This document shows positions 2,199 to 31,677 of a stretch of DNA of 64,000 nucleotides, one piece after another. The notes beneath the pieces were generated by a model that was not told the origin of the DNA, made no database searches, and was given only the letters and a program-made list of their open reading frames with translations. How positions within the stretch are numbered: position 1 is the first letter of the stretch; every line of letters begins with the position of its first letter. Source of the stretch: Alphaproteobacteria bacterium (lineage in GTDB: Bacteria > Pseudomonadota > Alphaproteobacteria > Micropepsales > Micropepsaceae). The stretch spans positions 62,001 through 126,000 of the forward strand of contig JAATGP010000035.1 of the NCBI GenBank assembly GCA_015654635.1, in the 5' to 3' direction. The translations under genes were made by a program, and so were the position numbers.

Positions 2199-2359
2199 GA
2201 ATTGCTCCGCGTTTTTTTCGCCATGCTGCGATAACGCATTATCACCCCGAGGCGCGTGCCTTCAGGGCTTTATCATGTACAAGAAGCGGGAAAATTCCGA
2301 AGCGATGCAAGGCTTCCATACCGGCTGGCGCAAAAAAACGCCACGAGTTCCGCAGCCGG
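2199..2359. other. Convergent intergenic region between GH17 and GH87 genes
   Basis: Transcription arrives from both sides. On the plus strand a short GGAG/CTCC stem around 2191-2207 is followed by a seven-T run. On the minus strand a GGCG-T7-G-CGCC hairpin lies near 2333-2348. These could act as weak terminators for the two operons. No gene is supported here. Confidence 0.35.
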
Positions 2360-4096
2360 CTAGTCGATAAAAATCCGAAAGTTCGGCGAATCGTTTTTAA
2401 CGTCACCGAGTTTCGAAGCCGAAAGTTTCACCGACCCGGCGACGTTGCTGCTGACCCAGAGGCCGTGGCGGTCTTTAGCGCCAAGGCCGTAATTTGTCAC
2501 CGTGACCCGCTCCAGAACGGTGTCGCTTAGGCGGCGCGTTGCGCCGAGTTCCTGTGGCGTGATGATGCTCACGCCATCGGAAAGACTGTCTTCGATGGCG
2601 ATATCGCTGATGCGCAGGCCCGCAATGTCCTTGCGTTGCAGACATATCTGCAGTGCCGCGCGCCAGGTCCAGCCATGATCATAACCGCCGCAGCGTTGCA
2701 GCAAGCAATTGCGTACCGTAGAAATTCCACTGAAGTTGTTGTCGGTCGTCTTATCCGATGTCGGGAAAGTCGTGCTGATCAGAATGCCGCTGCCCGAGCC
2801 GATATCGGTGAACAGGCAATCCTCGATGCGGTTGCCCGCACCGCCATAAAGCGAGGCGCCTTGCGCCAGAAACGGTGCCTGACCGGTACAGCGCCGGATG
2901 ACATTATTGCCTGGCGTCGAAGTCTGCTGCGTAAAGCCTTGATCGGCAGGGGTGGGCCAAATGGCAAAGCAGTCATCGCCGGTATTGCGTGCGGTACAGT
3001 TCTCGATCGTGCTATCGCGGACATCGACACAGAGGTTGATGCCATCGGCATAGGTGTTGCGCAGGCGGCAGCCTGTAATCGTGATATTACGGCAAACATA
3101 GAACCACATGCCAACTTTGGTGTGCTCCACCCACAGCCGCGAGACGGTGCAGTCGCGCCCATCAGCACCGAAAATCCCGTCGTTCTGCTCACTGTCATTG
3201 CGGTATTTCACTTTGCCGATCAGAGCAAAATCGGCCAGCTGGCTGTCTTCGCCGGTCAGCTTGAACCGCAGGCGTCGCGTGGGCTGCTCATAAAGTGCCT
3301 CGTCGCCGACAAAGGTGGTATGCCACATGCCGGCGCCTTTTAAGGTCACATGCGAGGGCATCACGATATCGCCCGTCAACTTATAGTCACCGGCGGGAAC
3401 AAAGGCGATCTTGCCGGATTTCGCGGCGGCTGCCAGCAAGCTCCGGAGCGCTTCGGTATCGTCGCTCCGGCCTTTGCCGTCGGCGCCGAAATCGGCGATC
3501 GAGAGGGCCCCTGCCGGTTGCTCCTCTGCTGGCGCCGTCAATTCCAGATCGACCAGATCGATGATGCACCATGGCGCCCCATGTCCGCTCTTGGCGAGCC
3601 GGATCACATCGCCTTTGACAATCGTAAGTTCTTTGATGCGCGCATCGTCAAAAAAATGGCGCGGCTTGCCGTCAGACGGATTGTTGGTAAAGGGATATTC
3701 GCCATAAAGCCAAGTGAAGCGCGAGGTTAGAGCAATCTCCCGCACCGCTTCGCCATTGCGATACAGTGTCAGCGCATCATTCAGGCCGCCGCCTTTGGCT
3801 GCATCCGGCAGCGAGTAGCGCACGACCAAGGTATTGGCTGGCGCGGTGACTGTGAACTCTACATAGTCTCCCGCCGTGCCGAGCTTGACGCAGCTCTGAT
3901 TGATGGCCTCGTTCTCCACCAGAAACGGCCCATATGTCGGCCCCAGCACGGTTCCTGTGGTTTTCATCGCTTCAGCTTGATAGCTGACCCAGGCAATATC
4001 GGCCCCAGGGGCGCGCTGGTTGCTCGTAACCGCAGCCGGCGCAGGCGTTGTGGCGAGGAAGGCGGCGGTGGAGACCAAAAGTTCTCGGCGATTCAT
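2360..4096 (-). CDS. Secreted GH87 alpha-1,3-glucanase / mycodextranase
   Basis: Parallel beta-helix glycoside hydrolase (578 aa) predicted to hydrolyse alpha-1,3-glucan or nigeran. The start at 4096 gives a Tat-like signal (MNRRELL, hydrophobic stretch, APAA). Residues 35-190 resemble a CBM6/35-type beta-sandwich (AEAMKTTGT opening), and residues 198-578 form the right-handed beta-helix starting at ADFGADGKGRSDDT. The putative catalytic acids are Asp351 (TYADGIN) and Asp374-Asp375 (NTGDD). Their 23/24-residue spacing equals the Asp triad I recall for Bacillus circulans Agl-KA. It is the last gene of a four-gene leftward operon, 10 bp after the GH65 gene. A GH28 or generic pectate-lyase-like assignment is the main alternative. 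Confidence 0.75.
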   Translation of the reverse strand: MNRRELLVSTAAFLATTPAPAAVTSNQRAPGADIAWVSYQAEAMKTTGTVLGPTYGPFLVENEAINQSCVKLGTAGDYVEFTVTAPANTLVVRYSLPDAAKGGGLNDALTLYRNGEAVREIALTSRFTWLYGEYPFTNNPSDGKPRHFFDDARIKELTIVKGDVIRLAKSGHGAPWCIIDLVDLELTAPAEEQPAGALSIADFGADGKGRSDDTEALRSLLAAAAKSGKIAFVPAGDYKLTGDIVMPSHVTLKGAGMWHTTFVGDEALYEQPTRRLRFKLTGEDSQLADFALIGKVKYRNDSEQNDGIFGADGRDCTVSRLWVEHTKVGMWFYVCRNITITGCRLRNTYADGINLCVDVRDSTIENCTARNTGDDCFAIWPTPADQGFTQQTSTPGNNVIRRCTGQAPFLAQGASLYGGAGNRIEDCLFTDIGSGSGILISTTFPTSDKTTDNNFSGISTVRNCLLQRCGGYDHGWTWRAALQICLQRKDIAGLRISDIAIEDSLSDGVSIITPQELGATRRLSDTVLERVTVTNYGLGAKDRHGLWVSSNVAGSVKLSASKLGDVKNDSPNFRIFID

Positions 4097-4106
4097 CGGG
4101 ATTTCC

Positions 4107-6413
4107 TTAGGCGACTTTTTCCGCCCGGTCGATAAGGATACGTTTTCCGGGCACACAGGACTCATCTCGCCCCCAGACGCAGAAGCGGCGTGTTTGGCGA
4201 TTGGATGGAGCAGCCGTTACGGCGACACTGTCATGGGTGATGGTGATGTCGAAGCTATCGCCCTTGTAGGCCAACTTGAATTTTAAACTCCGCCAACTTT
4301 TGTAGAGCCGCGGTGAGATCGTGACCTGATCGGCTCCGGCACTAACACCACCAAAGCCGAATACCGCCGTCATCCAGGCACCGCCGTTGGCCGCCGGATG
4401 CGAGCCGCCCATGAAGACCGTCCCGACATAGATCTTGTATTTGGCATCGAGATCGAGCCGGGCGGTCTTCAGAAAATATTTGTAGGCGAAGTCCAGGTTT
4501 CCAAATTCGGCTGCCACCATGGCGTAGGCACAGGCGCTGAGGCTGGAGCCATGTTCGGTACGCGGCTCATAATATTCCCAATTTACGCGCTTTACAGCAG
4601 TGGGATAACGCTCCCTGAACAGGCTCAGCATCATCACCACGTCGGCCTGCTTGATAACCTGGGTGGGGACGGCAAGCCCTTGCCCGGCGCCGAGATATTC
4701 GTCGGGGTGGATGCGCTGAGATTTCAATTCTTCGACGGGCACATTCCTCAGATTGAAATAGCCGTCGAATTGCTCAATCAGGCCGTCGGTCGGATTGGGC
4801 TCCGGCACATAGAGCAGACGCGCGGCTTCGGCAAAGAGAGGAAGCTCTTGTGCTATGGCAATCTTTTGCACCAGTGCCTTGAACGCCTCCGGGTGGGTCT
4901 CAGCCAGATAGAACGCGGTCTGGCTGGCGATCTCGAAGGTCGCTCTCACCACCATGTTGGTGAAGGCATTGTTGTTGACGCGCTCGTGGTACTCATCCGG
5001 ACCGATGACATCGAGGATCTCGTAGCGGTTTTTCTCCTTCTTGAAATAGGCGTAGGAGTAATAGAACCGCGCGCATTCCAAAATGACTTCGGCGCCGCCC
5101 TCCAGCAGAATGCAATCGTCACCGGTGAGCTTGAAATACTCCCACATCGCAATGGCGACGTCGCCGCTGATATGCACTTGCTTGTCGCGGAAATGGGTAC
5201 GCAATTCTCGCTTGGTCAGAGGATCACCGATATTGAAATAGGTACAGGCATCATCGCCGGTCTCCTGGCTTTCCCAGGCATAGAAGGCACCGCGATAACC
5301 GGCGCCTTCGGTCAGCGCCTTGCGCCTGGCGCCATCGAGGGTGCGGATACGGTAGCGTAGCAATTCGGCGGCTTTCTGCGGGCAGGTGTGCAGAAAGAAG
5401 GGAAACATGAACATCTCGGTGTCCCAGAACACCGCACCTTTATAGACTTGCCCAGAGAGCGCCCGTGCGGGAATGGAGTTCCGGCTGCCATCGACCGGTG
5501 CCACGATCAGGAGCTGGAAGATGCTATAGCGCAAGGCGTGCTGGGTTTCGTCGTCTCCTTCGATGATAACATCGCACTGGGCCCATTTATCGGCCCAGAC
5601 GGCATTGTGTGCGGCGAGGCAAACATCGAAGCCTTGTGCCTTGGCTTCGTGCACCGCCGCGATGGCTGCCTCGGGCGCCGTCAGGCCGGCCTCCTCAAAA
5701 GCGGTACAAACGGCAAAGTACTTCCAAAAGGTATAGGTCTTTCCCGCCTCGGCTTTGAAGCTGACGACCCTGAGATTGCGGTTGCCATCGACCTTATGAT
5801 GCTGTTGGCCAAAAGGAATCGTCGCGCTTTCGGCGACGGCCACGCATTTTCCCAACTCATTGGTCATGCCCGCGATCACCAGCGTATCGCCGTACATCTT
5901 CGCGTCCAGCCTGGGAAGATGGGGCCCGTTGAGATCCCAAATGTCGCCATCTATGCCGGTTTCGACGACGATATCGGCATCGTGATCGCTGCTGATACTG
6001 TAGCGGATGACGCCGAGATGGGGCTCCGCAGCACTCAGAAAACGCTGCGAGGCAATCGTTACGGTCTTACCATCCAACGCAAAAGCCGTTTTGCGCTCGA
6101 AGACGGCGTTGCGTAATGACAACGCTTGGTGATGGGCACTGACCGGCACCTCAAGCGCACCAACCGTCTGTCCATCCACCGCGATCCTTGTGTAGCCGCC
6201 ATTGGGTGCGTTGACCGGCTCACGCCATGCCTCGCCCACACGATCGAAGACTCCGGCCAAGGTAATGGCAACCAGTTCGCTGCGGCCATATTCGTCCAGA
6301 GTGCCACGATAGCCCATATAGCCATTGGCAATCTGATAGATATTGCCGTTGCGCATGATCGCTTCGCCATCGGCGGCCAGCGATGATGTTTCAACGCTCC
6401 AGAGATCGCTCAT
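4107..6413 (-). CDS. GH65 disaccharide phosphorylase (maltose/nigerose/kojibiose type)
   Basis: Cytoplasmic family 65 phosphorylase (768 aa, normal length) that splits an alpha-linked glucose disaccharide with phosphate into beta-glucose-1-phosphate and glucose. An N-terminal beta-sandwich (about 1-270) precedes the (alpha/alpha)6 barrel. GAVFWDTEMFMFPFF and the acid motif IGPDEYHE (Glu near 474) are diagnostic, as is the substrate-end motif TEHGSS with GTVFMGGSHPAANGGAW. The ATG overlaps the stop of the upstream transporter gene by 4 bp (translational coupling), and beta-phosphoglucomutase is in the same operon to handle the product. Linkage specificity cannot be read from sequence. The adjacent GH87 gene argues for nigerose or nigeran-derived products; maltose is the conservative alternative. 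Confidence 0.9.
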   Translation of the reverse strand: MSDLWSVETSSLAADGEAIMRNGNIYQIANGYMGYRGTLDEYGRSELVAITLAGVFDRVGEAWREPVNAPNGGYTRIAVDGQTVGALEVPVSAHHQALSLRNAVFERKTAFALDGKTVTIASQRFLSAAEPHLGVIRYSISSDHDADIVVETGIDGDIWDLNGPHLPRLDAKMYGDTLVIAGMTNELGKCVAVAESATIPFGQQHHKVDGNRNLRVVSFKAEAGKTYTFWKYFAVCTAFEEAGLTAPEAAIAAVHEAKAQGFDVCLAAHNAVWADKWAQCDVIIEGDDETQHALRYSIFQLLIVAPVDGSRNSIPARALSGQVYKGAVFWDTEMFMFPFFLHTCPQKAAELLRYRIRTLDGARRKALTEGAGYRGAFYAWESQETGDDACTYFNIGDPLTKRELRTHFRDKQVHISGDVAIAMWEYFKLTGDDCILLEGGAEVILECARFYYSYAYFKKEKNRYEILDVIGPDEYHERVNNNAFTNMVVRATFEIASQTAFYLAETHPEAFKALVQKIAIAQELPLFAEAARLLYVPEPNPTDGLIEQFDGYFNLRNVPVEELKSQRIHPDEYLGAGQGLAVPTQVIKQADVVMMLSLFRERYPTAVKRVNWEYYEPRTEHGSSLSACAYAMVAAEFGNLDFAYKYFLKTARLDLDAKYKIYVGTVFMGGSHPAANGGAWMTAVFGFGGVSAGADQVTISPRLYKSWRSLKFKLAYKGDSFDITITHDSVAVTAAPSNRQTRRFCVWGRDESCVPGKRILIDRAEKVA

Positions 6414-7903
6414 GCCGCATCCCTGACATTGTCTTTAACGAAAACCATCAGCAGTCCGGCCAGTATCATTGCCGCGCCGCCCAATAGGAGGGCGTAAATC
6501 GCCTGACCGTGAAACAGGGTGCGTACCAAAAGCCCGAGACTGGCGGAGGCGAGAATCTGCGGGATCACCACGAAGAGATTGAACATCCCCATATAGACGC
6601 CCATTTTTTTCTGCGAAACCGCGCAGGACAGGATGGCGTAAGGCATGGTGAGAAGGCTGGCCCAGGCGATGCCGATCGCGACCATGGAGATCAGCAGAAA
6701 AGTCGGGTCTTTGATAACGTACATCGACATCAGCCCGAGCCCGCCGATGATCAGGCAGACCACATGGGTGGCCACCCGGCCGATTTGCTTGGCGATCTGT
6801 GGCAGCAGAAATGCCACCAGAGCAGCGACGCCGTTGTAAACGGCCATCAGAACGCCGACCCAATTGGCACCGTCATTGTACAAAGCCGACGTGGGATCGT
6901 TCGAGTGGAAATGAAAACTCGTAATCGCCGAGGTCGAGTAGATAAACATGGCGAAGAGAGCAAACCAGGTCAGCATGGTAACCAAAGCGAGCTGCTTCAT
7001 GGTCGTCGGCATATGCTTCAGATCGGCGACAATCTCCACCATGCCGCCGTTCTCACCGGCGCGGGCTCTGGCGGCTGCCACGATTTCCAGGCCGCCGTAA
7101 AAAACAAGACCGATGGAAAGGATGTAGAGCCCGGCATACCAGGACAACACCTGCACCGCATATGTGAAGCCCGCTCCCACGAGGATCAGGGCCACGCCCT
7201 CGCGCGTACAGCTCTTGGTGTCGAGAGCTGTTGTTTCGGCTGTTTCCACCGCCGTTCCAGGGCTGAAAGCCTCCTGCTCAGCGGGGGAATATTCGCGAAC
7301 CTTGAACACGGTCCACAACACGGTGGCAAGAAAAGCGATGCCGCCGATATAGAAGGACCATTTGACCGAAGGCGGAATCTCGCCAGCGGGCGCGGTGTTG
7401 GCGAGGTGAAGCCATTGGGTGAAGAGCCAGGGGCAGATCGAGGCGACAACGGAGCTGACACCGATGAAAAAGGTTTGTACCGCAAAGCCCTGCGTACGCT
7501 GATCATCTGGCAGCATGTCGCCGATGAAGGCACGGAATGGCTGCATGGTAACATTGATGGAGGCGTCCATGATCCACAGCATACCGGCAGCGATCCAAAG
7601 GCCTGGCGAATTGGGCATGAACAATAGAGCGAGCGAGGACAGGATGGCGCCGATCAGGAAATAAGGTTTGCGGCGACCGAGCCGGTTCCAGGTCTTGTCG
7701 CTCATATGACCGATGATCGGCTGGATCAGAAGACCCGCAATCGGAGCGGCAATCCATAGAATGGGAATATTCTCGACCTTAGCGCCGAGCGTTTCGAAGA
7801 TGCGGCTCACATTGGCATTCTGCAGGGCAAAGCCGAATTGGATGCCGACATAGCCGAAGCTCATATTCCACAATTGCCAGAAATTGAGCCGGGGTTTTCT
7901 CAT
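6410..7903 (-). CDS. MalY-like maltose/disaccharide MFS transporter (SLC45/SUT type)
   Basis: Inner-membrane symporter (497 aa, about 12 membrane helices) of the sucrose/maltose transporter branch of the MFS, resembling the MalY transporter of Caulobacter. It carries the signature loop GHMSDKTWNRLGRRKPYF after helix 2 and a second helix-rich half from about residue 300. A cytoplasmic insert lies near residues 215-245. It imports the intact disaccharide into the cytoplasm for phosphorolysis by the GH65 enzyme encoded immediately downstream. Its start overlaps the pgmB stop (TGA/ATG sharing) and its stop overlaps the GH65 start, so the block is one tightly coupled operon. The sugar specificity (maltose versus nigerose) is open. 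Confidence 0.85.
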   Translation of the reverse strand: MRKPRLNFWQLWNMSFGYVGIQFGFALQNANVSRIFETLGAKVENIPILWIAAPIAGLLIQPIIGHMSDKTWNRLGRRKPYFLIGAILSSLALLFMPNSPGLWIAAGMLWIMDASINVTMQPFRAFIGDMLPDDQRTQGFAVQTFFIGVSSVVASICPWLFTQWLHLANTAPAGEIPPSVKWSFYIGGIAFLATVLWTVFKVREYSPAEQEAFSPGTAVETAETTALDTKSCTREGVALILVGAGFTYAVQVLSWYAGLYILSIGLVFYGGLEIVAAARARAGENGGMVEIVADLKHMPTTMKQLALVTMLTWFALFAMFIYSTSAITSFHFHSNDPTSALYNDGANWVGVLMAVYNGVAALVAFLLPQIAKQIGRVATHVVCLIIGGLGLMSMYVIKDPTFLLISMVAIGIAWASLLTMPYAILSCAVSQKKMGVYMGMFNLFVVIPQILASASLGLLVRTLFHGQAIYALLLGGAAMILAGLLMVFVKDNVRDAA

Positions 7904-8691
7904 ATTGGATGCCTCTCACCGGGAGCGCCGGGCCTTGTACGGACGACAGTCTCGAACCAGTGATCGATTTCGTCGACTGATATTTGGGAAAGATCGTTCA
8001 CAACGATATCGGCGCCGTGCTGGCGCAGCGCTTCGGTATTGCCATCGCGCGCCACCCCCAGCGTCAGACCGAAGCGCCCCCGTGCACCGGCTTGCACCCC
8101 GCTAGTCGCGTCTTCGACAATCAGGGCGCGATGCCGGCAGGCCCCCAGCCTCTCGCAGGCTTCCACAAAGATATCCGGGGCAGGTTTGCCCATCAGGCCC
8201 AATTCGGCCGAGACCACACCATCGACCCGGGTTTCGAACATTTCGGCAATGCCGGCCTTTTGTAGAACCAGCGCGCCGTTCTTGCTGGAGGTGGCCACCG
8301 CCACTTTCACACCGCAGCGCCGCAGCGCAAGAATCAAGGCGGTGGTCGAGCCGAATACCTTTACGCCTCGGGTTCTCAGGATGCGGTTGAAGCTTGCATC
8401 TTTGCTGTTACCAAGGCCGCAAATCGTATCCCGTTCGGGCGCATCACTGGGGTCGCCGAAGGGCAGGTCTATCCGGTGCGAACGAAGGAAGGCGGCCACG
8501 CCATCATAACGCGGCCGGCCATCGACATGGGCGAGATAATCCGCCTGCGTAAAGGGCTCGAACGGTGTATCGGATTGGGCAGCGTGATCCCGCAGATAGG
8601 TGTCGAAGGTCTCTTTCCAGGCAGCTGCATGTACCGACGCCGTATCGGTGATTACTCCGTCCATATCAAAGATGGCCGCATCAAAATGCAT
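7900..8691 (-). CDS. pgmB: Beta-phosphoglucomutase (HAD superfamily)
   Basis: Converts beta-glucose-1-phosphate from the GH65 phosphorylase into glucose-6-phosphate. This 263-aa HAD protein shows FDMDGV (nucleophile Asp9, acid/base Asp11), a helical cap domain (about 20-110), motif II ATSSKN, the conserved Lys in GKPAPDIF and the metal-binding VEDATSGVQAG. It is the first gene of the leftward operon pgmB / transporter / GH65 / GH87. Transcription probably starts in the 8692-9316 region that also serves the divergent TBDR. The cap insert is slightly longer than in short PGMs. The combination with GH65 makes the assignment firm. Confidence 0.9.
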   Translation of the reverse strand: MHFDAAIFDMDGVITDTASVHAAAWKETFDTYLRDHAAQSDTPFEPFTQADYLAHVDGRPRYDGVAAFLRSHRIDLPFGDPSDAPERDTICGLGNSKDASFNRILRTRGVKVFGSTTALILALRRCGVKVAVATSSKNGALVLQKAGIAEMFETRVDGVVSAELGLMGKPAPDIFVEACERLGACRHRALIVEDATSGVQAGARGRFGLTLGVARDGNTEALRQHGADIVVNDLSQISVDEIDHWFETVVRTRPGAPGERHPI

Positions 8692-8899
8692 GGCGCTGCG
8701 CCCCCGATGGCGTAACCGGCGATCCGCCTAACTGTTTGGCGTGATGGCAAAAGAGGCAAAAACTCAAAACACGCCGAAGCCGCATGACAGACTCAAACAT
8801 TTGCTGTTCAAGCGGTGCAACGCCGCCCGAGTGTCTAAGGGGCACGAAAATCCATCCCCTCGGCATTATCGACACGCGGGCAACGCTGCCAATCGCAGC

Positions 8900-8911
8900 G
8901 CATACGTATAC
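8900..8911. promoter_or_regulatory. Candidate LacI-family operator A
   Basis: GCATACGTATAC differs by one base from the perfect palindrome GTATACGTATAC at 9005. It has the central CG pair typical of LacI-family operators. Its centre lies 105 bp from that of the second site, about ten helical turns. The likely binder is the LacI protein encoded at 12877-13935. Confidence 0.55.
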
Positions 8912-9004: not shown

Positions 9005-9016
9005 GTATACGTATAC
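9005..9016. promoter_or_regulatory. Candidate LacI-family operator B
   Basis: GTATACGTATAC is a perfect 12-bp palindrome with a central CG step, 300 bp before the TBDR start and about 315 bp before pgmB. Together with operator A it could support looping repression of both divergent transcripts. Confidence 0.6.
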
Positions 9017-9316: not shown

Positions 9317-12300
9317 ATGACCAATAGCAGTTTCGGCCGCAAGGCCGCCATGCGGGGGAGCGCGTCGTTGCTGGTTTTGGCGGCGATCGCGGTTGCCGCT
9401 CCGGCCTGGGCAGAGGCCGAAGGTACATTGGAAACCGTCGTCGTCACCGGTGTGCGGGCTTCGCTCGAAAGCGCCGTCAATATCAAGCGGAACGCGGATA
9501 CCGTCGTTGATTCGATCACTGCAACGGATATCGGCGTGTTCCCCGACAAATCCGTTTCCGATGCCATCCAGCGCGTGCCCGGCGTAACCGTGTCGCATCT
9601 GCAGTCGGACGACGACACCACTCATCCTTCGGGCGAGGCGACCGGCGTGCTGGTTCGCGGCTTGACTCAAGTGCGCACCGAATTCAACGGCCGTGACAGC
9701 TTCTCGGCCGATGGCCATCGCGGTCTGAACGTCAACGACGTTTCGCCGGAAATGATCGGCGGCATCGATGTCTATAAGAACCAGACCGCGGATATGGTCG
9801 AAGGCGGCATTGCTGGCACGGTGAATATCCGCACCCGCATGCCATTCGATGCGGACGACCACACCCTGTCTGGTTCGGTCAAGATGAATTACAACGACCG
9901 CGCCGACGATGTGACCTACGATTATTCGGGCGTGGTGGGCAAGAACTTCGACACCCAGTTTGGACGTGTCGGCTTCGTGCTGGGTTACGCCAATTCCCAT
10001 GTCGTGACGCAAACGAACTCGGTCATCATGTTGCGCAATGGCACCTTCTGCTCGGCTGGCGCGACCAACCCCGATGGTAGCGCGATCGTCAGCAGTGACG
10101 GCTCTGTCCCTTGCACGGCCACGGCATATGGCGGCAAAAATTGGCAATATATACCGGATGAGGTGAACTACAGCCGCGTCAACTACGACCGCAAGCGCGA
10201 AGGCAAATCTTTCGCTCTGCAGTATGAAAGCCCTAACAAGGATGTGCGCTGGAACTTCCAGTACAATGAATCGAATTATCGCAACGCTTGGCTCGAACAC
10301 AGTTCAAACGTCAACCTGTTCGGCATGTGGGCGGCTCCGGGCTTCGACCCGATTGCGGGAACGCCGCAGCCGCCGGTATTGCCCGCCTTCGGCACGCCTG
10401 CCTTCACCTTCAACTCCAACGGCACGCTGCGCTCGGGTGTGATCGCCGCTCCGAGGGGCGGTTGGGTGAGCGACTATGCCGGAAGCTTCGCGAGTGCTCT
10501 TGCCTCGGCGTCGGTCGTTCCCGGTGTGCCATACGTCAATTACTGCGGTGCCGGGTATACCTGCGCCAACACCGCCACTGACGGCGTGACGCTCGAGAAT
10601 CAATCCCGCGTCTTCGACCATTCGGAAGGCACGCGCGATCTGTCGACCAACCTGCAATGGGATCTGACTCCGAAACTGCATGCGACCTTCGACGGCCAGT
10701 ACATCAGTGCCAAGACGGGCAACAACGACATGCTGGTGGCTGCCGATACACTGGTGGATGCCAAATACGAGCGCGACGGCAACGGCGCGCCGGCAATCAC
10801 CTTATTGCCAGGCGACAATGTCAATTACGCCCCCGGGTTCCTCGCCAATCCGCAAAATTACTACAGCGCCTTCATTCAGGACCATGTGGAGCACAACAAT
10901 GCGCAAGAAGTCGCGCTGAAGGGTGATGCCCAGTGGGATGTCGACAACGGCTGGCTCTCTTACATCAAAGCCGGCGTGCGCTATGCCAACCGCAAGCAGG
11001 TGGTGCGGTATTCGGCCTATAACTGGCAGCCCGTGGCCGCTCCTTATATGTGCAATGGGCCGGGCTTTAGCATCGCCAACACCACCCCGTCCGCCTATCC
11101 GGCCGCGTGTGGCAATTCCACCATGTTCACGGGCTATGGCGCCAACATCTGGGAAACCCAAAGCCTTGGCAGCGGTTTCTACAACGGCAACGTTTTCAAT
11201 CCGGGCGATACAGTCTGGCTGAAGAACTCCGTGCTTGAGGACCCTAATGCCGTCGCTGTGGCGCTGGGTCATAAGGAGACCGGCAGCCCCGGCTCATGGG
11301 ATCCGGTCTGCAATCGCGCGGGCACCACCAACTGCTATCAGCCGTCGGAAGTGCTGAGCGTCACGGAAAAAACCACGGCCGGCTATTTGATGATCGCTTT
11401 TGGCGGCGATTCGCTGGCAGTCCTCGGCATTCCGGTGTCGGGCAATATCGGTGCGCGTTACGTCGAGACCGAACTGACCAGCACAGGCGGCATTTCATAC
11501 CCGGACAACAGCTGGTATCAGAACCAGCTCTCCGGTGCGCCCTGCAACACACCGGTCGGCGGTAACAACGTCACCAACATCTCGTGCTGGCTGACGTCCG
11601 CACTGGGATCCTTCAGCAATGGTGGTTCCGGCCTCAATAGCTTCGGCAAGACCACCTATAACCTGCTGCCGAGCTTCAACGTCAAGTTCGATCTGACCGA
11701 TAACACACTTCTGCGTTTTGCTGTTTCGGAAGCCTTGTCGCGGCCAGACTTCGGTTACCTGCGCAACTATGTTGGCATCACGCCGCCCGCCATCGACGTG
11801 ACCAATGCTTCGCCATACGTGACCTACAATTCGCCGACGGCGGCGCACACCCAGGCAAATGTTACAGGCTACAACTTCGAGTTCATCGCCAACGCGGGTA
11901 ACCCGGCTCTGAAGCCGATGACCGCTTGGCAGTACGACGCGACGTTTGAGCATTATTTCAGCGCTTCCAGTTCGTTCACCGCCGATGTGTTCTTGAAGGA
12001 ACTGAACAACAGCATCGCTTACGGCGATGTGACGCGCGCCATCACCAACAATGGGGCGACGGAGAACATCCTGGTTCGCGGTCCGGTCAACTCCCCGAAT
12101 GGCGGCGAGCTGTGGGGCTTTGAAATGGCGTATCAGGCCTTCTTCGACTTCCTGCCGGATCCGTTCGATGGCTTTGGCACCCAGCTCAACTACATCCACA
12201 CCCATCAGGCCGGAATCCACAACTCCAACCTGGCGGTTCAGCCTGGCTACATCGCCGGCAGCACCATCGCTTATGGCGGCGGTCTGCAGATCGACAATGC

Positions 12301-12679
12301 GGTTATCGATTCGCACCGCTTGGCCGGCATCTCCGACGATTCGTACAACATCGTCGCCCTGTACGAGAAAGGTCCGATTGGCTTCCGTCTCGCCTACAAC
12401 TGGCGTTCATCCTTCCTGACCGACAACCTCGACTGCTGCACCGGCACGCCGATGTATCAGAAATCCGCCGGGTTCCTGGATGGGTCGATCCGCTATTCGG
12501 TGGACGAGCATTGGGAAGTGTCGTTGGACGGCTCCAATCTCCTCGACACCCCGATTGTCTTCCAGCAGCAGGTCATGGGCGACACCTCGCTCTCGCCGAA
12601 CGCCAAGCCAGTCAAACTCGATACCGGCTGGAGTCGGAGCGGCCGTCTGCTCCAGTTTGCGATCCGGCTTAAGTACTGA
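9317..12679 (+). CDS. TonB-dependent receptor (putative alpha-glucan oligosaccharide uptake)
   Basis: Outer-membrane TonB-dependent transporter, 1120 aa from the ATG at 9317, which has GGGAGG upstream and is followed by a signal peptide ending near APAWA. The TonB-box-like ETVVVTG is followed by a plug with DIGVFPDKSVSDAIQRVPGV and VRGLTQVRTEFNGRD. The rest is a 22-strand-type barrel with large, Cys-containing extracellular loops, ending in the aromatic FAIRLKY. This is the subclass frequently linked to carbohydrate uptake. Its shared promoter region with the pgmB/GH65/GH87 operon and the downstream LacI gene suggest import of nigero- or malto-oligosaccharides; the substrate is inferred from context. 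Confidence 0.85.
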   Translation: MTNSSFGRKAAMRGSASLLVLAAIAVAAPAWAEAEGTLETVVVTGVRASLESAVNIKRNADTVVDSITATDIGVFPDKSVSDAIQRVPGVTVSHLQSDDDTTHPSGEATGVLVRGLTQVRTEFNGRDSFSADGHRGLNVNDVSPEMIGGIDVYKNQTADMVEGGIAGTVNIRTRMPFDADDHTLSGSVKMNYNDRADDVTYDYSGVVGKNFDTQFGRVGFVLGYANSHVVTQTNSVIMLRNGTFCSAGATNPDGSAIVSSDGSVPCTATAYGGKNWQYIPDEVNYSRVNYDRKREGKSFALQYESPNKDVRWNFQYNESNYRNAWLEHSSNVNLFGMWAAPGFDPIAGTPQPPVLPAFGTPAFTFNSNGTLRSGVIAAPRGGWVSDYAGSFASALASASVVPGVPYVNYCGAGYTCANTATDGVTLENQSRVFDHSEGTRDLSTNLQWDLTPKLHATFDGQYISAKTGNNDMLVAADTLVDAKYERDGNGAPAITLLPGDNVNYAPGFLANPQNYYSAFIQDHVEHNNAQEVALKGDAQWDVDNGWLSYIKAGVRYANRKQVVRYSAYNWQPVAAPYMCNGPGFSIANTTPSAYPAACGNSTMFTGYGANIWETQSLGSGFYNGNVFNPGDTVWLKNSVLEDPNAVAVALGHKETGSPGSWDPVCNRAGTTNCYQPSEVLSVTEKTTAGYLMIAFGGDSLAVLGIPVSGNIGARYVETELTSTGGISYPDNSWYQNQLSGAPCNTPVGGNNVTNISCWLTSALGSFSNGGSGLNSFGKTTYNLLPSFNVKFDLTDNTLLRFAVSEALSRPDFGYLRNYVGITPPAIDVTNASPYVTYNSPTAAHTQANVTGYNFEFIANAGNPALKPMTAWQYDATFEHYFSASSSFTADVFLKELNNSIAYGDVTRAITNNGATENILVRGPVNSPNGGELWGFEMAYQAFFDFLPDPFDGFGTQLNYIHTHQAGIHNSNLAVQPGYIAGSTIAYGGGLQIDNAVIDSHRLAGISDDSYNIVALYEKGPIGFRLAYNWRSSFLTDNLDCCTGTPMYQKSAGFLDGSIRYSVDEHWEVSLDGSNLLDTPIVFQQQVMGDTSLSPNAKPVKLDTGWSRSGRLLQFAIRLKY

Positions 12680-12760: not shown

Positions 12761-12876
12761 TTATGGGATGCAATTATCGGTTGTGTGCCGTCGGGCGGGG
12801 ATTTATGGCATCCACGCTGCTTTTGTTGCGAATTTGTGGCATGGTGACGGCGCATCAGGACTTAGAAAAAAGGCCG

Positions 12877-13935
12877 ATGGGAGAGAAACCAACCCGTGAT
12901 TCTGGATCGGTTCCACGACCGACCTCGTTCGACATTGCCCGCAGAGCTGGTGTCTCGCAGCCCACGGTGTCGCGCGCCTTGCGTGGCGATCCCACCATCA
13001 GTCCGATCACGCGCCGCCGCGTCGCTTTCATCGCCAAGGAGCTTGGTTATAAAGTCGACAAAAATGCCTCTAACCTTCGCGGTCAGCGCTCGCTGACTAT
13101 TGCTATCCTCTTCTTCGAGGATCAGCGTTTTAATGCCTCACTGATCAACCCGTTCTTTCTGTCGATGCTGGGGTCCATCACCGGAGCTTGTGCCAAACGC
13201 GGTTACGATCTTTTGATCTCCTGCCAGCACCTGTCGAGCAATTGGCGGATCGACTATGAAGACAGCCGCCGGGCCGATGGCATCATCCTCCTGGGCTATG
13301 ACGACTTCGTTACTTACAGCGCCGAGTTGGAGCGGCTTGTGGAAGAGGGCACGCATTTCGTGCATTACGGCGCGACACTGAAGGATCATCCTGGACTGTC
13401 GGTTGGCTGCGATGATTATACGAGTGGCCTGGAAGCGACGCGTCATTTGATTTCGCTAGGCCGCCGCAACATTGCCTTTCTTGGCTGTGCCTCGGAACAT
13501 TACCCGGAATTCTTTGGGCGTTACCGTGGCTACGTCGATGCCTTGCGCGCCGCTGATCTGCCTGTGCTGCCGCAATTGCAGGCGGATGCTGTCAGTGCAT
13601 TGCCGGACGGGGAGAGGGCCATGCGCCAGATTATCACCGCCGGTGCGCCGTTTGACGGTATCTTCGCTGCCAGCGATCTTATCGCGATCGCGGCCTTACA
13701 GGTCTTGCACGAGGCCGGCTACACGGTACCGGAGCAGGTGTCGGTCGTCGGCTTTGACGACATCCCGGTTGCCAGCATGATCACGCCTGCCCTTACCACC
13801 ATGAAGCAGGATACGCAGCTTGCGGGTGAGGTGCTGGTGGACACCTTGCTGAAGCTCATGCGCGGCGAACAGGCTGAACCCACGGTTCTGCCCTGCCAAC
13901 TGGTGATACGAAAGTCCTGCGGCGCGGCGCATTGA
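12877..13935 (+). CDS. LacI-family transcriptional regulator
   Basis: 352-aa repressor with an N-terminal LacI helix-turn-helix (PTSFDIARRAGVSQPTVSRA, residues about 13-32), the hinge region ending near NASNLRGQRS and a periplasmic-binding-protein-like sugar domain (VVGFDDIPVASMITPALTT). The ATG at 12877 was chosen because residues upstream of MGEKPTRD are not LacI-like; an ATG at 12841 is possible. It follows the TBDR terminator on the same strand. Its location and the paired GTATACGTATAC sites at 8900 and 9005 make it the probable regulator of the alpha-glucan operon and TBDR, responding to a disaccharide such as maltose or nigerose. Confidence 0.85.
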   Translation: MGEKPTRDSGSVPRPTSFDIARRAGVSQPTVSRALRGDPTISPITRRRVAFIAKELGYKVDKNASNLRGQRSLTIAILFFEDQRFNASLINPFFLSMLGSITGACAKRGYDLLISCQHLSSNWRIDYEDSRRADGIILLGYDDFVTYSAELERLVEEGTHFVHYGATLKDHPGLSVGCDDYTSGLEATRHLISLGRRNIAFLGCASEHYPEFFGRYRGYVDALRAADLPVLPQLQADAVSALPDGERAMRQIITAGAPFDGIFAASDLIAIAALQVLHEAGYTVPEQVSVVGFDDIPVASMITPALTTMKQDTQLAGEVLVDTLLKLMRGEQAEPTVLPCQLVIRKSCGAAH

Positions 13936-25611: not shown

Positions 25612-25618
25612 TTTGAAC

Positions 25619-28600
25619 ATGAACACATTACGCATCTGCAGTTTTTGGTTTGCCGCCATGGTGTTGAGTGGAGCGGCTTTGGCATCCACCTCTGTTTTTG
25701 CCACAGCCCCATCGGATCCGCGGGCCGTCACGGTGGCGGGGCGCGGTGATGGCATTGCCGATGATACGGCGGCCCTTCAAACCGCCATCGATCGGGCAGG
25801 CGAGGGTGGCGGCGGGATAGTCTTCCTCCCTTCCGGCCGCTACCGCATCAGCCGCACGATCCTGGTGGGGCCCGGTGTCCGTCTTTACGGCACCGGGCCA
25901 ACCCGTCCGGTTCTGCTGCTGGGGGATCGCACGCCCGGCTTTCAGCGCGGTGTTGCTAATATGGTGGTTTTTACCGGGGCCAAATTCGCGGCCTTCCCGC
26001 ATGTGCCATTTCCGCCGCCGAGTGTGGTACCCTTTGATCCCAAAATCGCCGATGCCAATTCGGGCACTTTCTATTCCGCGATCAGCAATGTCGATGTCGA
26101 GATTGGCACCGGCAATCCGGCGGCCGCGGCGATACGCTTTCGCGTCGCTCAGCATGCGTTCCTCAGCCACATGGAGTTTCACTTGGGCTCCGGCTTCGCG
26201 GGCATTTATCAGGCGGGCAATCTGATTCGGGATGTGCATTTTCACGGTGGCCGCTATGGCATCGTGACTGAGAAGACCTCGCCCGCATGGCAATTCACGG
26301 TCGTCGATTCCAGCTTCGACGGTCAGCGCGCTGCCGCCATCCGCGAGCACGAGGTCGGGTTGACGCTGGTCAATGTTGCGATCCGCAATGTGCCGGTGGG
26401 GATCGATATCGACCGCGGTTATAATGACCAGCTATGGGGCAAAGACGTTCGCTTTGAGCAGGTGAAAAACGCCGCGATCATCATCTCCAACGAAAATAAC
26501 GTCTATACCCAGATCGGCTTCGAGAACGCGCTGGCGGCCGACACGCCGGTATTCGCGCGGTTTCGCGACAGCGGGAAAAAGGTGGACGGCAAAGGGCGGT
26601 TCTACCGCGTCGCGGCGTTCAGCCATGGCTTGGCCGTGCCGGGTGTTGGACAAATGGGGCAGACTGCCACCACGGCGGAACTGACGCCGCTTGATGCCTT
26701 GCCGCCCGAGCGCGCGCCTGCGATCCGCGCCTTGCCGCCGGTTTCCGAATGGAGCAATGCGCACGATCTCGGCGCTCTTGGGGATGGCAAGGCGGACGAT
26801 ACGGCGGCGCTGCAGCGCGCCATCGATAGCCACCGCGTGGTCTATCTGCCATCCGGCCTTTACAAGGTCACCGACACGCTGCATTTGAAGCCCAACACGG
26901 TGCTCATTGCACTGCATCCGACCCAGACGGAGATCTTCCTTCCCGATTCGACGCCCTCCTATCAGGGTGTCGCGGCGGCAAAACCCCTGATCCAATCGGC
27001 AGAAGGCGGTGATGCCATACTCTCCGGTGTTGGTCTCTACACTGGCGACATCAATCCGCGCGCCACTGCCTTACTATGGATGGCTGGTGCGGAGTCATTG
27101 GTCGAAGATATCAAATTCCAGCTCGCACTCGGCAAGGATTTTCCCGGTGCAGCCACTTCCGCGCCCTTCAACGCGGCGCAAACTGCAACCCCCGCCCCAT
27201 CCGAATTCTTCAACATCAAGCCATCACCGCGCTGGGATGGGCAGTATCCCAGCCTATGGGTGACGAAGGGCGGCGGCGGTACCTTCATCGGCTGCTGGAG
27301 CCCGAATACCTTTGCCGGCGCGGGATTCTACATCTCGGATACCAGCACGCCGGGGCACGCCTACGAGATGTCGGTCGAGCATCATGTGCGCCACGAGATT
27401 GTTCTGGAACGGGTGGCCAATTGGGAACTGTTGGCACCACAAACCGAGGAAGAATACCGCGAGAGCGGCAATGCGGTGTCGCTCGAAATCCGCGATTCCC
27501 ACGACATTCTGATCGCCAATTACCACGCCTATCGCGTCACCCGCACGTTGGTCCCGGCCCGGTCGGCGGTCGAACTTAGCAACTCGAGCAGCATTCACTT
27601 CCGCAACGTGCATGTGAATAGCGAAAGCGGCTTTACAAGTTGTGACGGCGACGCCTGCATCACCTATTTGCGCGCCAACAAATTTCCGTACGAGAATGCG
27701 ATTGTCGACATTACGCACGGGCAAAAGCTGCGCGAGCGCGAATTCGCCTCGCTCGACATTCCGGCCGCTGCGGCACCAATTGCGGCTGCCACCAGTCCCG
27801 TTGTCAGCAAGCTCGCCGACGGTTTCTTCGCGCTTGGCGGCGGGGCGGCGGATTCGCATGGCACGTTCTATTTTATCGATCGCACATTCCAGCGCATTTA
27901 CAGCTGGTCGCCAACGTTGGGTTTGCGGGTCGTCAACGATCAGCCATTGGATGCTGTTAATCTGGCGGTGGACCGCTCTGACAATCTGCTTGTGCTGTCC
28001 TCTGCGGGGTTTGAAGGGGCCGTCTTCAGCCTTAAGCCAGACGGTGCAATCGCCCCCATCCCGCCGGCGCCTATAGCCCCGCATCCGCAAGCAGCGTTCG
28101 CTTTGCCAGCCAATTGGTGGGTCAATGGCGAGTTCAAAGATCAATACGATCCGGCGCACGATCACTTCAAGACACTCGCCGAACTCTTTGCCGCCGATGC
28201 TGCAACGGCGCCGTCCCAGGAATATGTCTCGCCGGATGGCAGTCTGGTGCTGCCGGCCTATCATGTGGTCCATCAAGGCCCGCCAGACAATCGTGGCTGG
28301 CGCTTCTCGCACGCGCTGGATAGCTATGGCTTCACGCTGGCGCAGCCCGGCACACGCGCCTTCATCAGCAATGGCTCCGAGGCGCGAACCTACAGCGCCA
28401 AAGTTGGGTCAAGCGGTGCGCTCCTCGATCTGAAATTTTTTGCAGAGCGCGGTGGTGAGAGTGTGGTGGCCGACAGCGCTGGCCGCGTCTACGTGGCCAA
28501 TGGGCAGATTTTCGTCTACACCGCCCAGGGTGAAGAAGTGGGCCGCATCGATGTGCCGGACAGGCCTTTACAGCTGGTAATCGGCGGGGCGGGCCATCAC

Positions 28601-28669
28601 ACCCTGTTCATCCTCACCCATCACGCGCTTTATTCGGCGGATCTTTCCCAAAGTGCCATAACGCGTTGA
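25619..28669 (+). CDS. GH55-like exo-beta-1,3-glucanase with C-terminal propeller-like domain
   Basis: Secreted protein (1016 aa from the ATG at 25619) with a Sec signal peptide ending at SVFA. Two tandem right-handed beta-helix halves each start with the same motif: GDGIADDTAALQTAID (about 45) and GDGKADDTAALQRAID (about 390), the twin-helix architecture of GH55. From about residue 715 an added segment (FALGGGAADSHGTFYFIDRT, later AVDRSDNLLVLSS) resembles SMP-30/NHL-type propeller blades, which is longer than usual for the family. It probably removes glucose or short oligomers from beta-1,3-glucan. It pairs with the TBDR upstream. The ribosome site is poor, so coupling to the receptor is likely. 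Confidence 0.7.
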   Translation: MNTLRICSFWFAAMVLSGAALASTSVFATAPSDPRAVTVAGRGDGIADDTAALQTAIDRAGEGGGGIVFLPSGRYRISRTILVGPGVRLYGTGPTRPVLLLGDRTPGFQRGVANMVVFTGAKFAAFPHVPFPPPSVVPFDPKIADANSGTFYSAISNVDVEIGTGNPAAAAIRFRVAQHAFLSHMEFHLGSGFAGIYQAGNLIRDVHFHGGRYGIVTEKTSPAWQFTVVDSSFDGQRAAAIREHEVGLTLVNVAIRNVPVGIDIDRGYNDQLWGKDVRFEQVKNAAIIISNENNVYTQIGFENALAADTPVFARFRDSGKKVDGKGRFYRVAAFSHGLAVPGVGQMGQTATTAELTPLDALPPERAPAIRALPPVSEWSNAHDLGALGDGKADDTAALQRAIDSHRVVYLPSGLYKVTDTLHLKPNTVLIALHPTQTEIFLPDSTPSYQGVAAAKPLIQSAEGGDAILSGVGLYTGDINPRATALLWMAGAESLVEDIKFQLALGKDFPGAATSAPFNAAQTATPAPSEFFNIKPSPRWDGQYPSLWVTKGGGGTFIGCWSPNTFAGAGFYISDTSTPGHAYEMSVEHHVRHEIVLERVANWELLAPQTEEEYRESGNAVSLEIRDSHDILIANYHAYRVTRTLVPARSAVELSNSSSIHFRNVHVNSESGFTSCDGDACITYLRANKFPYENAIVDITHGQKLREREFASLDIPAAAAPIAAATSPVVSKLADGFFALGGGAADSHGTFYFIDRTFQRIYSWSPTLGLRVVNDQPLDAVNLAVDRSDNLLVLSSAGFEGAVFSLKPDGAIAPIPPAPIAPHPQAAFALPANWWVNGEFKDQYDPAHDHFKTLAELFAADAATAPSQEYVSPDGSLVLPAYHVVHQGPPDNRGWRFSHALDSYGFTLAQPGTRAFISNGSEARTYSAKVGSSGALLDLKFFAERGGESVVADSAGRVYVANGQIFVYTAQGEEVGRIDVPDRPLQLVIGGAGHHTLFILTHHALYSADLSQSAITR

Positions 28670-28680: not shown

Positions 28681-29826
28681 TTAGGCGTTGTGCAATACGC
28701 CGCCGGCGAAGCTGCACTGCAGGTTGAAGGCATCATCCACCAGGACAAAATCGGCGCGCGCGCCTGCGGTGATGCTTCCGGTTTCACGGGTAAGCCCCAG
28801 AAAAGCGGCGGCATTGCCGCTCGAGAGTTTGGCGGCGATTGCGAAATCGTTGATCCTTAGAAATTCCATCGCCTTGCGGACCACGGTGGCCATATCGGTA
28901 GCGCTGCCGGCCAGCGTTCCGTCGGGGCCCAGGCACAGCCCATTTTCGGCGCGTATCGTGCGGCCTTGCAGGACAAAGCTCTTCTGGGTGCTGCCGACCG
29001 GGGGCATCGCATCGGTCACCAGCATCAGCTTGTCGTCACCGCGGCAGGCATAAGCCACGCGTAAGGCCGCCGGGTGGACATGATGGCCGTCCGTGATGAT
29101 ACCGCACCAGCTCTCCTCATCGTCGAGCGCGGCGCCGACCACGCCGGGGGTACGCGTCTGCAGGGGCGACATGGCATTGAAGAGATGGGTGAAGCCGCGT
29201 GCTCCTGCCCGCAGTACTGCCTGGGTCTCATCATAGCTGGCATCGGAATGGCCGATGCAGACGATCACGCCAGCCGCCACCAATTGTTTGACCGCTGCAA
29301 GCGAGACTGTTTCGGGCGCGAGCGTCACCATCGTTTTGCCATGCTGCAGCGACGACAAAATGCGCACCGCTTCGTCATCCAATGGCGGAAAAGTGGTTGG
29401 ATTGTGAATGCCGCGGCGCTTGGGGCTGAGGTAGGGCCCTTCGATATGAATGCCGAGAATACCGGGCACGCCATAGGCGATGGCCTCATCCACGGCTGCA
29501 ATGGCTTTGCCAATACTGGCAATGTCGGTGGAAATGATCGTGGGCATCAGACCTGTGGTGCCGAAACGCGCATGGGCATGGGCGATGGCCCGCAAGCCCT
29601 CAACGGTTGGTGCATCATTGAACAAAACGCCGCCACCGCCATTGACCTGCACGTCCAGATAGCCGGGCATGAGAACACCGCCGCCGAGATCGACCCGCAT
29701 CGCATCGCCCGGAACGGCATCATCGGCGACAAGCCCTAGAATGCGCCCGTTCTGGCACAACACACTTTGTCCGCGCACAAGGCCCTGCGCGGTTACGATA
29801 CGGCCATGGCCGAAAGCAGTAATCAT
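28681..29826 (-). CDS. nagA: N-acetylglucosamine-6-phosphate deacetylase
   Basis: Cytoplasmic amidohydrolase (381 aa) that removes acetate from GlcNAc-6-phosphate made by the PTS at 38773-42995. Family motifs are complete: PGYLDVQVNGGGG, HIEGPYLSPKRRGIHNP (metal Glu), GHSDASYDE, HLFNAMSPL, DGHHVHP and the catalytic Asp in LVTDAMPPVG. Its start overlaps the nagB-II stop, placing it third in nagR-nagB-II-nagA. The 3' end is 11 bp from the convergent GH55 gene, with no clear terminator between them. Confidence 0.93.
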   Translation of the reverse strand: MITAFGHGRIVTAQGLVRGQSVLCQNGRILGLVADDAVPGDAMRVDLGGGVLMPGYLDVQVNGGGGVLFNDAPTVEGLRAIAHAHARFGTTGLMPTIISTDIASIGKAIAAVDEAIAYGVPGILGIHIEGPYLSPKRRGIHNPTTFPPLDDEAVRILSSLQHGKTMVTLAPETVSLAAVKQLVAAGVIVCIGHSDASYDETQAVLRAGARGFTHLFNAMSPLQTRTPGVVGAALDDEESWCGIITDGHHVHPAALRVAYACRGDDKLMLVTDAMPPVGSTQKSFVLQGRTIRAENGLCLGPDGTLAGSATDMATVVRKAMEFLRINDFAIAAKLSSGNAAAFLGLTRETGSITAGARADFVLVDDAFNLQCSFAGGVLHNA

Positions 29827-30863: not shown

Positions 30864-31607
30864 CTACTCCGAGGTTGTCAGTTCGGCGACGAAGTCATAG
30901 GTGTCGCCGCAATAATAGGATTGGGAAAACTCCACGATGCGCCCGTCGTGCAAAAAGCCCCGCCGTTCCACCAAAAGCCCGGCATCGCCCTCTTTGCCAT
31001 GGAGCAACTCGGTCTGCGGCGCGGTGAGCGGAACGGCGCGCAAGCGTTGCAAGGCGCGCTGTGGCCGGTACCCGGCTTTGCCCAAGGCGTCGTAAAGCGA
31101 CGACTGTACAGCTTCGACCGAGGGCAGCACGAAGGTCGGCACCGTACAAAATTCCAGCGACATCGGTGTGTCATCGGCATAGCGCAAGCGGTTGAAGCGA
31201 TAGACCGGTGTTCCCGGCGCAAAGCCGGTCGACATTGCCTCCTCCGGCGAGACCACGCCTTGCGACTTGCGCAGCCATACCGATCGCGGTGTTTTCCCGC
31301 GCGAGGTCATGTCTTCGGTGAAGCTCGAGAGTTTGGAGAAACTTTTTTCGACACGGCTGGCGACGAAGGTGCCCGAACCTTGGCGCCGCGTCAGCAGTCC
31401 TTCGCTCACCAGCCCATCCAGCGCTTTGCGTACGGTGATACGCGAAACGGAAAATTCTTCAGCCAGCTCGCGCTCCGGCGGCAGGGCATCTTCCGGTGCC
31501 AGAAGTTTCATCTCAATGGCACGCCTGAGACCGCGTTGCAGCTGCTGGTACAGCGGCAGGTTTTGCTCCTCGGTGAGGCGCCCAATAATGGCCGAAAGGG
31601 AAGGCAC
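30864..31607 (-). CDS. nagR: GntR/HutC-family regulator of the nag locus
   Basis: 247-aa regulator: winged helix (LPPERELAEEFSVSRITVRK, wing RRQGSGTFVA) plus a UTRA sugar-phosphate-binding domain (about 95-240, opening FSKLSSFTEDMTSRG). A GTG at 31607 is chosen because AAGGAGG lies 5 bases upstream; the longer frame from 31667 contains an upstream CCGCCT/AGGCGG hairpin (31632-31648) that better suits a 5' leader. It heads the operon with nagB-II and nagA and probably responds to GlcNAc-6-P or GlcN-6-P. Twin copies of TGGTATTGCATTGG in the divergent region are the best operator candidates. Confidence 0.85.
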   Translation of the reverse strand: MPSLSAIIGRLTEEQNLPLYQQLQRGLRRAIEMKLLAPEDALPPERELAEEFSVSRITVRKALDGLVSEGLLTRRQGSGTFVASRVEKSFSKLSSFTEDMTSRGKTPRSVWLRKSQGVVSPEEAMSTGFAPGTPVYRFNRLRYADDTPMSLEFCTVPTFVLPSVEAVQSSLYDALGKAGYRPQRALQRLRAVPLTAPQTELLHGKEGDAGLLVERRGFLHDGRIVEFSQSYYCGDTYDFVAELTTSE

Positions 31608-31663
31608 CGCAACCTCCTTAATTGGTCTCTTCCGCCTCCAGTAGGCGGCAACCAAATCTAGTA

Positions 31664-31677
31664 CCAATGCAATACCA
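31664..31677 (-). promoter_or_regulatory. Candidate NagR operator, nagR side
   Basis: CCAATGCAATACCA on the plus strand reads TGGTATTGCATTGG on the minus strand, identical over 14 bases to the site at 31794 in opposite orientation. It lies 57 bp before the nagR GTG. The 306-bp divergent region holds no other gene. Confidence 0.6.

Follow-up and report, generated by a model that had tools for sequence, protein, structure and literature searches.

Gene content of the locus

Bacterial feeding on α-1,3-glucan, a polymer of fungal walls that is also present in dental plaque (PMC11475409), is poorly known. Here we describe a locus for which this polymer is the predicted substrate, carried on a 64,000-nucleotide stretch of contig JAATGP010000035.1 (assembly GCA_015654635.1; hereafter the window) from a bacterium that we take to be related to Rhizomicrobium (Micropepsaceae, Alphaproteobacteria), whose genome is 3.9 Mb in size and 92.9% complete (assembly length, 3.885 Mb). 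The locus is a small, defined gene set with a predicted operator: a four-gene operon encoding a haloacid dehalogenase (HAD)-family protein, a major facilitator superfamily (MFS) transporter, and members of glycoside hydrolase families 65 (GH65) and 87 (GH87), together with a divergent TonB-dependent receptor and a LacI-family regulator (Table 1). Taken as a whole, it is probably a utilization locus that leads from α-1,3-glucan through nigerose and β-glucose-1-phosphate to glucose-6-phosphate.

The four genes of the operon lie head to tail on the minus strand (8691 to 2360) in the order HAD, MFS, GH65, GH87, with 4-bp overlaps joining HAD to MFS and MFS to GH65 and a 10-bp gap separating GH65 from GH87. 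A first-pass annotation of the DNA had placed four overlapping or near-contiguous genes here, and all four are present, but the unit it drew was too small, leaving out the receptor and the regulator that diverge from the operon on the plus strand. The receptor scored 544.7 bits on TIGR01782, above the curated cut-off of 310. The MFS transporter scored 112.8 bits on the GPH_sucrose model, below the cut-off of 511. Directly after the GH87 stop codon comes a terminator-like hairpin; such hairpins number 15 in the region against 11.6 expected, and it is the position after GH87 that makes the argument. Promoter-like sites are weak evidence taken alone, since the 12-kb region has 4 where 5.4 would be expected.

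Table 1. Features of the predicted α-1,3-glucan utilization locus (positions in the window)
Feature	Position	Strand	Evidence
Terminator-like hairpin and T-run	2340..2356	-	Directly 3' of the GH87 stop codon
GH87 endo-α-1,3-glucanase-like protein, 578 aa	2360..4096	-	Pfam CatAgl_D1/D2, phmmer to PDB, triad, structure model
GH65 inverting α-glucoside phosphorylase, 768 aa	4107..6413	-	Pfam, motif E-E-Q-T-H-G, active-site residues
MFS transporter, 497 aa	6410..7903	-	MFS_1, 87 bits; sugar specificity inferred
HAD-family protein, probable β-phosphoglucomutase	7900..8691	-	HAD hydrolase, 75 bits (Pfam); TIGR02009 and TIGR01990 scores
Promoter-like site of the operon, TTGGCA-16-GATAAT	8865..8892	-	Consensus scan, 10/12 matches; adjoins inner palindrome
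Inner palindrome-like GCATACGTATAC, probable LacI-family operator	8900..8911	none	Near-match of outer palindrome, position
Outer palindrome GTATACGTATAC, probable LacI-family operator	9005..9016	none	Exact in 9/9 intergenic regions
TonB-dependent outer-membrane receptor	9317..12679	+	TIGR01782, 544.7 bits; ATG 9317 preceded by GGAGG box
LacI-family regulator	12784..13935	+	PF00356, PF13377; start uncertain, possibly 12856

The GH87 protein

Pfam recognizes CatAgl_D1 (121 bits) and CatAgl_D2 (93 bits; cut-off 27 each) in the GH87 protein, a layout of β-sandwich and β-helix, and solved α-1,3-glucanases were its top phmmer matches (PDB 7c7d, E 8.7e-58). Its likely start is ATG 4096 rather than 4165, because an AAGGAA box lies upstream and an Arg-Arg N-terminus is kept in all nine same-genus copies. 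With this start, the Asp residues 351, 374, and 375 that the first-pass annotation had singled out are correctly numbered, and they align with the catalytic Asp residues of three solved GH87 enzymes. The triad of Agl-FH1 (D1045, D1068, D1069; PMC10696023) has the identical 23/24 spacing, and the triad is present in 24 of the 24 GH87 open reading frames (ORFs) found in 27 loci, with one genome counted twice. An AlphaFold2 model (predicted local distance difference test score, 84.9) matched seven GH87 structure entries at Z 39.2 to 40.4 over 494 to 521 residues, and the next-best chain reached Z 29.9, matching the helix only. Other β-helix enzymes, such as alginate epimerase and GH28, were rejected as matches, since the 43 further matches listed had Z below 30 and aligned only from about residue 192. 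Pfam domains, triad spacing, and the combined β-sandwich and β-helix fold place the protein in GH87, in agreement with its first assignment.

By eye, the N-terminus (MNRRELL...) is twin-arginine-like, and GH87 proteins of other phyla have different, hydrophobic-looking leaders. The protein barely exceeds the catalytic unit, whereas the GH87 next to a related GH65 of Clostridium yunnanense (L079) is a 1782-aa multi-domain protein. Such a small size would fit a periplasmic role, and the exported enzyme may work there, on oligosaccharides already taken up, instead of extracellularly.

The GH65 protein

The N, M, and C domains of GH65 are complete in Pfam (313, 133, and 31 bits). The general acid E474 and the phosphate-site residues K325, S623, S624, and H672 are all intact, and since these phosphate-site residues, described for phosphorylases in PMC8626586, are kept, we read the protein as a phosphorylase; the same residues rule out a hydrolase. 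We read its specificity at six CsKP positions (64, 392, 394, 402, 416, and 585; De Beul et al. 2021, PMC8537180), which gave the motif EEQTHG. This matches neither KV[MF]NES of the maltose phosphorylases nor EEAPxx of the kojibiose phosphorylases, with which it has the first two letters in common, nor the motifs of tested trehalose (TRIGPP), α-1,3-oligoglucan (FAITQA), or trehalose-6-phosphate (DQGQDE) phosphorylases (PMC8537180). Glucosylglycerol phosphorylase, read in the same way, has EIGPHP. Identity is 37% to that enzyme and 34 to 35% to kojibiose phosphorylase.

Among 104 rows with an EEQ-type motif, some of them duplicates or fragments, the lysine is kept in 104/104; in the 96 rows reaching the remaining sites, the general acid, S623, and the histidine are kept in all and S624 in 94. 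A tree of 63 rows groups the 29 EEQ rows into one set, with a Shimodaira-Hasegawa-like approximate likelihood ratio (SH-aLRT) support of 99; the maltose, trehalose, and kojibiose rows and the FA[IL] rows (those beginning with FAI or FAL) fall outside it. The set adjoins glucosylglycerol phosphorylase, a long branch of unsure placement.

Linkage of GH87 and GH65 within the family and class

GH87 (PF22816) was matched in 9 of the 96 family genomes; the same nine have an orthologue of the window GH65 (at least 68% identity), in one case split over two contigs. The probability of drawing the same 9 of 96 genomes by chance is 7.7e-13 if the genomes are taken as independent, which they are not. Across the class, GH87 was found in 1 of 385 sampled genomes, namely the window's own. 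Receptor and regulator orthologues hold the same position by the operon in all eight other same-genus genomes that have it.

The genus appears to have separate enzymes for trehalose and, in six members, for maltose. The window's genome has two GH65 genes in all, the other with the motif TRIA-H, of trehalose-phosphorylase type, beside genes for a trehalase, an MFS protein, and a HAD protein. A separate GH65 bearing the maltose-type motif KVMN-S was found in six further members of the genus, five of which also carry the operon; second GH65 matches in L025 and L031 were left out of this motif classing.

Linkage beyond the family

For a wider sample we used the best 80 of 449 confirmed GH65 relatives, found by two peptide patterns; one pattern sits in loop 3, so that loop's conservation is partly due to selection. 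Twenty-six loci from 25 genomes have a GH65 at least 62% identical to the window's (L104 and L107 are halves of one gene split over two contigs), and the next best is at about 50%. These closer loci come from this genus, Verrucomicrobiota (Opitutaceae and others), Bacteroidota, and metagenome-assembled genomes (MAGs) without a phylum. A search for GH87 beside GH65, the check suggested in the first-pass annotation, upheld the pairing: the two genes are adjacent in 9/9 family genomes carrying both, and GH87 lies within about 0.6 kb of GH65 in 21 of the 25 genomes. Three Bacteroidota loci (L056, L058, and L064) instead have a GH71-like gene (PF03659) after GH65, in the GH87 slot. Two of these score 54.7 and 47.7 bits (cut-off 34; second half of the profile covered), and the third, cut by a contig end, falls below the cut-off at 28.3 bits. 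L058 also bears SusC-like, SusD, GH99-like, and GH97 genes. L048 has neither GH87 nor a GH71-like gene in the locus stretch, and a GH87 elsewhere in its genome.

The other 54, more distant loci are mostly from Firmicutes, and some share one genome (L065 with L079, and L078 with L088). A second, FA[IL]-type GH65 stands in 30 of the 54 (15 FAI, 12 FAL, and 3 that vary within the first three motif positions), either arranged head to tail with the EEQ gene or separated from it by as much as about 3.5 kb; the L113 copy is broken into two ORFs. GH87 lies in the stretch of three (L079, L086, and L100). Motif classing of the 26 closer loci gave no FA[IL]-type GH65. GH87 is present in 18 of 39 selected genomes bearing the GH65 clade, compared with 9 of 397 over the cut-off in one Firmicute family, though the lineages differ. 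Together, the three kinds of neighbor (GH87, GH71-like, and FA[IL]-type GH65) point to an α-1,3 linkage, because GH71, like GH87, is an α-1,3-glucanase family (PMC10696023).

This wider linkage bears on two other explanations. The first is that an ordinary maltose operon of importer, maltose phosphorylase, and β-phosphoglucomutase adjoins GH87 by accident. Maltose loci of Gram-negative bacteria do have a similar set of MFS, GH65, β-phosphoglucomutase, TonB receptor, and LacI genes, and the window's own genome lacks a maltose-type GH65, so a separate maltose enzyme cannot be invoked there and this point counts against an α-1,3-glucan role. Nevertheless, we consider the accident highly improbable: the motif is EEQTHG rather than KV[MF]NES, a distinct GH65 with the maltose-type motif is kept by six genus members (of which five have the operon), and the adjacency to GH87 is kept across phyla. 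Strict maltose specificity of GH65, a refuting outcome named in the first-pass annotation, is likewise disfavored by the sequence.

The second explanation leaves the pathway as it is, with nigerose still the product, and concerns the polymer. GH87 could be a mycodextranase that cuts the α-1,4 bonds of nigeran; both activities occur in the family (PMC13421300), and a single phosphorylase would be enough if nigerose were the main product. On the other hand, the solved GH87 enzymes that it matches are α-1,3-glucanases, in a comparison set that held no mycodextranase, some Bacteroidota have a GH71-like gene in the same slot, and many distant GH65 genes stand by an oligoglucan-phosphorylase-like GH65. 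We therefore hold a mycodextranase to be unlikely, while the present data would fit either α-1,3-glucan or nigeran as the substrate.

Three further observations concern single GH65 loci. In Pontiellaceae (L100, 7838-16479), two GH87 genes flank an EEQ-type GH65, and a second GH65 has the unusual motif QQDP, possibly a further specificity. Loci L134, L164, and L165, from Mobilisporobacter and from genomes in the genus of Clostridium sp. KNHs205, have a GH65 with EESA-S, unlike the published motifs, which could be another specificity group. L078 and L088, from one Verrucomicrobiaceae MAG, have an EEQ-type GH65 beside genes that look sulfatase-like by eye, a context not suggestive of α-1,3-glucan.

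A palindrome confined to the locus

All nine same-genus intergenic regions between operon and receptor contain the exact 12-bp palindrome GTATACGTATAC, and each has a second copy 84 to 168 bp away, with one mismatch in eight regions and two in one. In the window, the inner and outer copies are 105 bp apart. With up to one mismatch allowed, these two are the only matches in the whole assembly, whereas a reversed control pattern had 7 matches per strand; at two mismatches, one further match appears in the window, at 61000. Of the 19 close loci from other genera or phyla, 13 were scanned with up to one mismatch allowed and none had it, so among the loci searched the palindrome is known only from this genus. 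Its position and conservation suggest that the LacI protein binds both copies.

A probable phosphorolytic route

The first-pass annotation had proposed a route from nigeran or α-1,3-glucan to nigerose, β-glucose-1-phosphate, and glucose-6-phosphate, and our analysis supports it through the adjacency of GH87 and GH65, the GH71-like genes in the GH87 slot, the FA[IL]-type neighbors, and the lack of a maltose motif. The TonB receptor would take up α-1,3-gluco-oligosaccharides, and the exported GH87, periplasmic or partly released, would yield nigerose and short nigero-oligosaccharides, which the MFS protein would import to the cytosol. There, GH65 would use phosphate to form β-glucose-1-phosphate and glucose, and the HAD protein, as a β-phosphoglucomutase, would convert the former to glucose-6-phosphate with no ATP spent. 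Splitting by phosphate instead of water would save energy. At the two palindromes, the LacI regulator would keep the divergent promoters shut until an inducer arrives. Gene content, conserved linkage, membership in GH87 and GH65, intact residues, and locus-restricted palindromes are the observations on which this scheme builds; from them we infer the linkage specificity, the cell compartments, transport, the β-phosphoglucomutase activity, and induction.

Several findings weigh against the scheme. For the HAD protein, the β-phosphoglucomutase named in the first-pass annotation stood as a HAD hydrolase (75 bits) but missed both specific models, scoring 150.3 bits on TIGR02009 (the β-phosphoglucomutase superfamily), just under the curated cut-off of 153.35, and 94.4 bits on TIGR01990 (the equivalog), well under 189.4. 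The HAD gene is also missing in one same-genus copy (L038) and truncated in another (L039), was not found in L058, and has only a distant match in L056. By gene context, it is still the probable β-phosphoglucomutase. Spread of the locus as a cassette would alone hold its genes together. Among solved structures, GH65 is best matched by glucosylglycerol phosphorylase, and the FA[IL] rows adjoin maltose-type rows in the tree. FAITQA is known from one tested enzyme, and the neighboring GH65 proteins match over its first three positions. No assay of the EEQ-type clade was found in the literature searched. Since the motif and tree comparisons lacked the reference nigerose phosphorylases Cphy_1874 and Cphy_3313, we withhold the outright label of nigerose phosphorylase. 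Furthermore, 24 of the 54 distant loci have no classed FA[IL]-type GH65 (L079 and L100 among them have GH87, and L111 has a truncated second GH65); in 21 of the 54 there is no GH87, GH71-like, or FA[IL]-type gene, and seven of these, examined further, offered no clue to a substrate.

These 21 loci also speak for another explanation, in which GH65 acts on a different α-glucoside, such as 2-O-α-glucosylglycerol, kojibiose, or glucosyl-rhamnose, and GH87 supplies a different sugar. The EEQ set does stand beside glucosylglycerol phosphorylase in the tree, albeit on that uncertain long branch, E64 and WE391-392 are as in kojibiose phosphorylase, H416 and F417 are as in glucosylglycerol phosphorylase, and there is an apparent rhamnose locus at a distance of 40 kb. 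Yet the whole motif fits no enzyme with a known motif, and the pairing with GH87, GH71-like, and oligoglucan-phosphorylase-like proteins recurs in several phyla, so we regard a different glucoside as improbable and favor the nigerose route.

With rather less than even confidence, we suggest that the EEQ-type GH65 proteins could be one specificity group of α-1,3-glucobiose phosphorylases, around which a mobile and exchangeable module is built. Their partners would be an intracellular oligoglucan phosphorylase in Firmicutes and others, an exported GH87 in Gram-negatives, and an exported GH71-like enzyme in some Bacteroidota.

Relation to known systems

The first-pass annotation had taken the pairing of GH87 with GH65 as unknown, which does not stand: in Lachnoclostridium phytofermentans, a putative GH87 near the nigerose phosphorylase Cphy_1874 is already in print (PMC9061262). 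That cluster resembles the present one in its GH65 near a putative GH87, sugar transporter, LacI regulators, and proposed nigerose route; however, it belongs to a Firmicute and has an ABC importer and a GH31 α-1,3-glucosidase (Cphy_1877), and its description, as far as consulted, names no TonB receptor (PMC9061262). Cphy_3313 and Cphy_3314 are a nigerose and an α-1,3-oligoglucan phosphorylase, respectively (PMC8950772), and because their accessions are consecutive they are suggested to be neighboring genes. This arrangement recalls the distant relatives of the window GH65 that lie near an FA[IL]-type GH65 in 30 of 54 loci, but differs from the 26 closer loci, which have GH87 or a GH71-like gene instead. 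Cphy_3313 itself may belong to the EEQ clade.

A putative GH87/GH97/GH99 locus of Prevotella melaninogenica likewise combines a Gram-negative GH87 with a TonB-dependent transporter, but GH65 and phosphorylase are absent from the paper's main text (PMC13421300). The authors of that study (2026) were aware of no experimentally characterized utilization locus with GH87 (PMC13421300). The best-scoring solved GH65, the 2-O-α-glucosylglycerol phosphorylase of Salisediminibacterium selenitireducens (4KTR, 4KTP), has a similar loop 3 length, but it differs in its motif (EIGPHP versus EEQTHG), and a glutamine replaces the phosphate-site lysine K325.

Judged on titles and the starts of abstracts, no description of the present system was found in the open-license literature, nor was any work combining GH65, phosphorylase, maltose, β-phosphoglucomutase, and TonB-dependent. 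The pairing of GH87 with a nigerose phosphorylase is known from one Firmicute, and the Gram-negative form with a TonB receptor, an MFS transporter, and a probable LacI operator appears to be a new variation on it. If the exchangeable module suggested above is real, no phosphorolytic system for α-1,3-glucan utilization would have been defined in Gram-negative bacteria before this one, which would have a LacI operator of its own. The locus also suggests a substrate for the EEQ-type GH65 clade and may supply phosphorylases for making nigerose, and within the genus it is present in a named strain, R. electricum DSM 21034.

Other loci in the window

Convergent to the operon, positions 14-2198 hold genes for a GPH-type symporter and a GH17 β-1,3-glucanase-like protein. 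Both recur in one other locus only, that of the closest relative (L035), 4.5 kb from the operon with genes between. An apparent N-acetylglucosamine locus at 28681-46483 has NagA-like, SIS-domain, GntR, TonB receptor, GH20, PTS, and ROK kinase genes, assigned by eye except for GH20 and ROK; alongside the GH17 and GH87 genes, it hints at a fungal-wall theme. Within it, a TPR-sulfotransferase fusion protein is encoded at 34695-36422 on the minus strand.

Just before this locus, at 25613-28666, lies the gene for a 1018-aa protein with two pectate-lyase-like β-helix stretches (PF12708), perhaps GH55-like. Positions 46550-60041 probably form a rhamnose/pectin locus, with GH106 α-L-rhamnosidase, GH28-like, and GH2-like genes, a class II aldolase gene recognized by Pfam, and a kinase gene recognized by eye.

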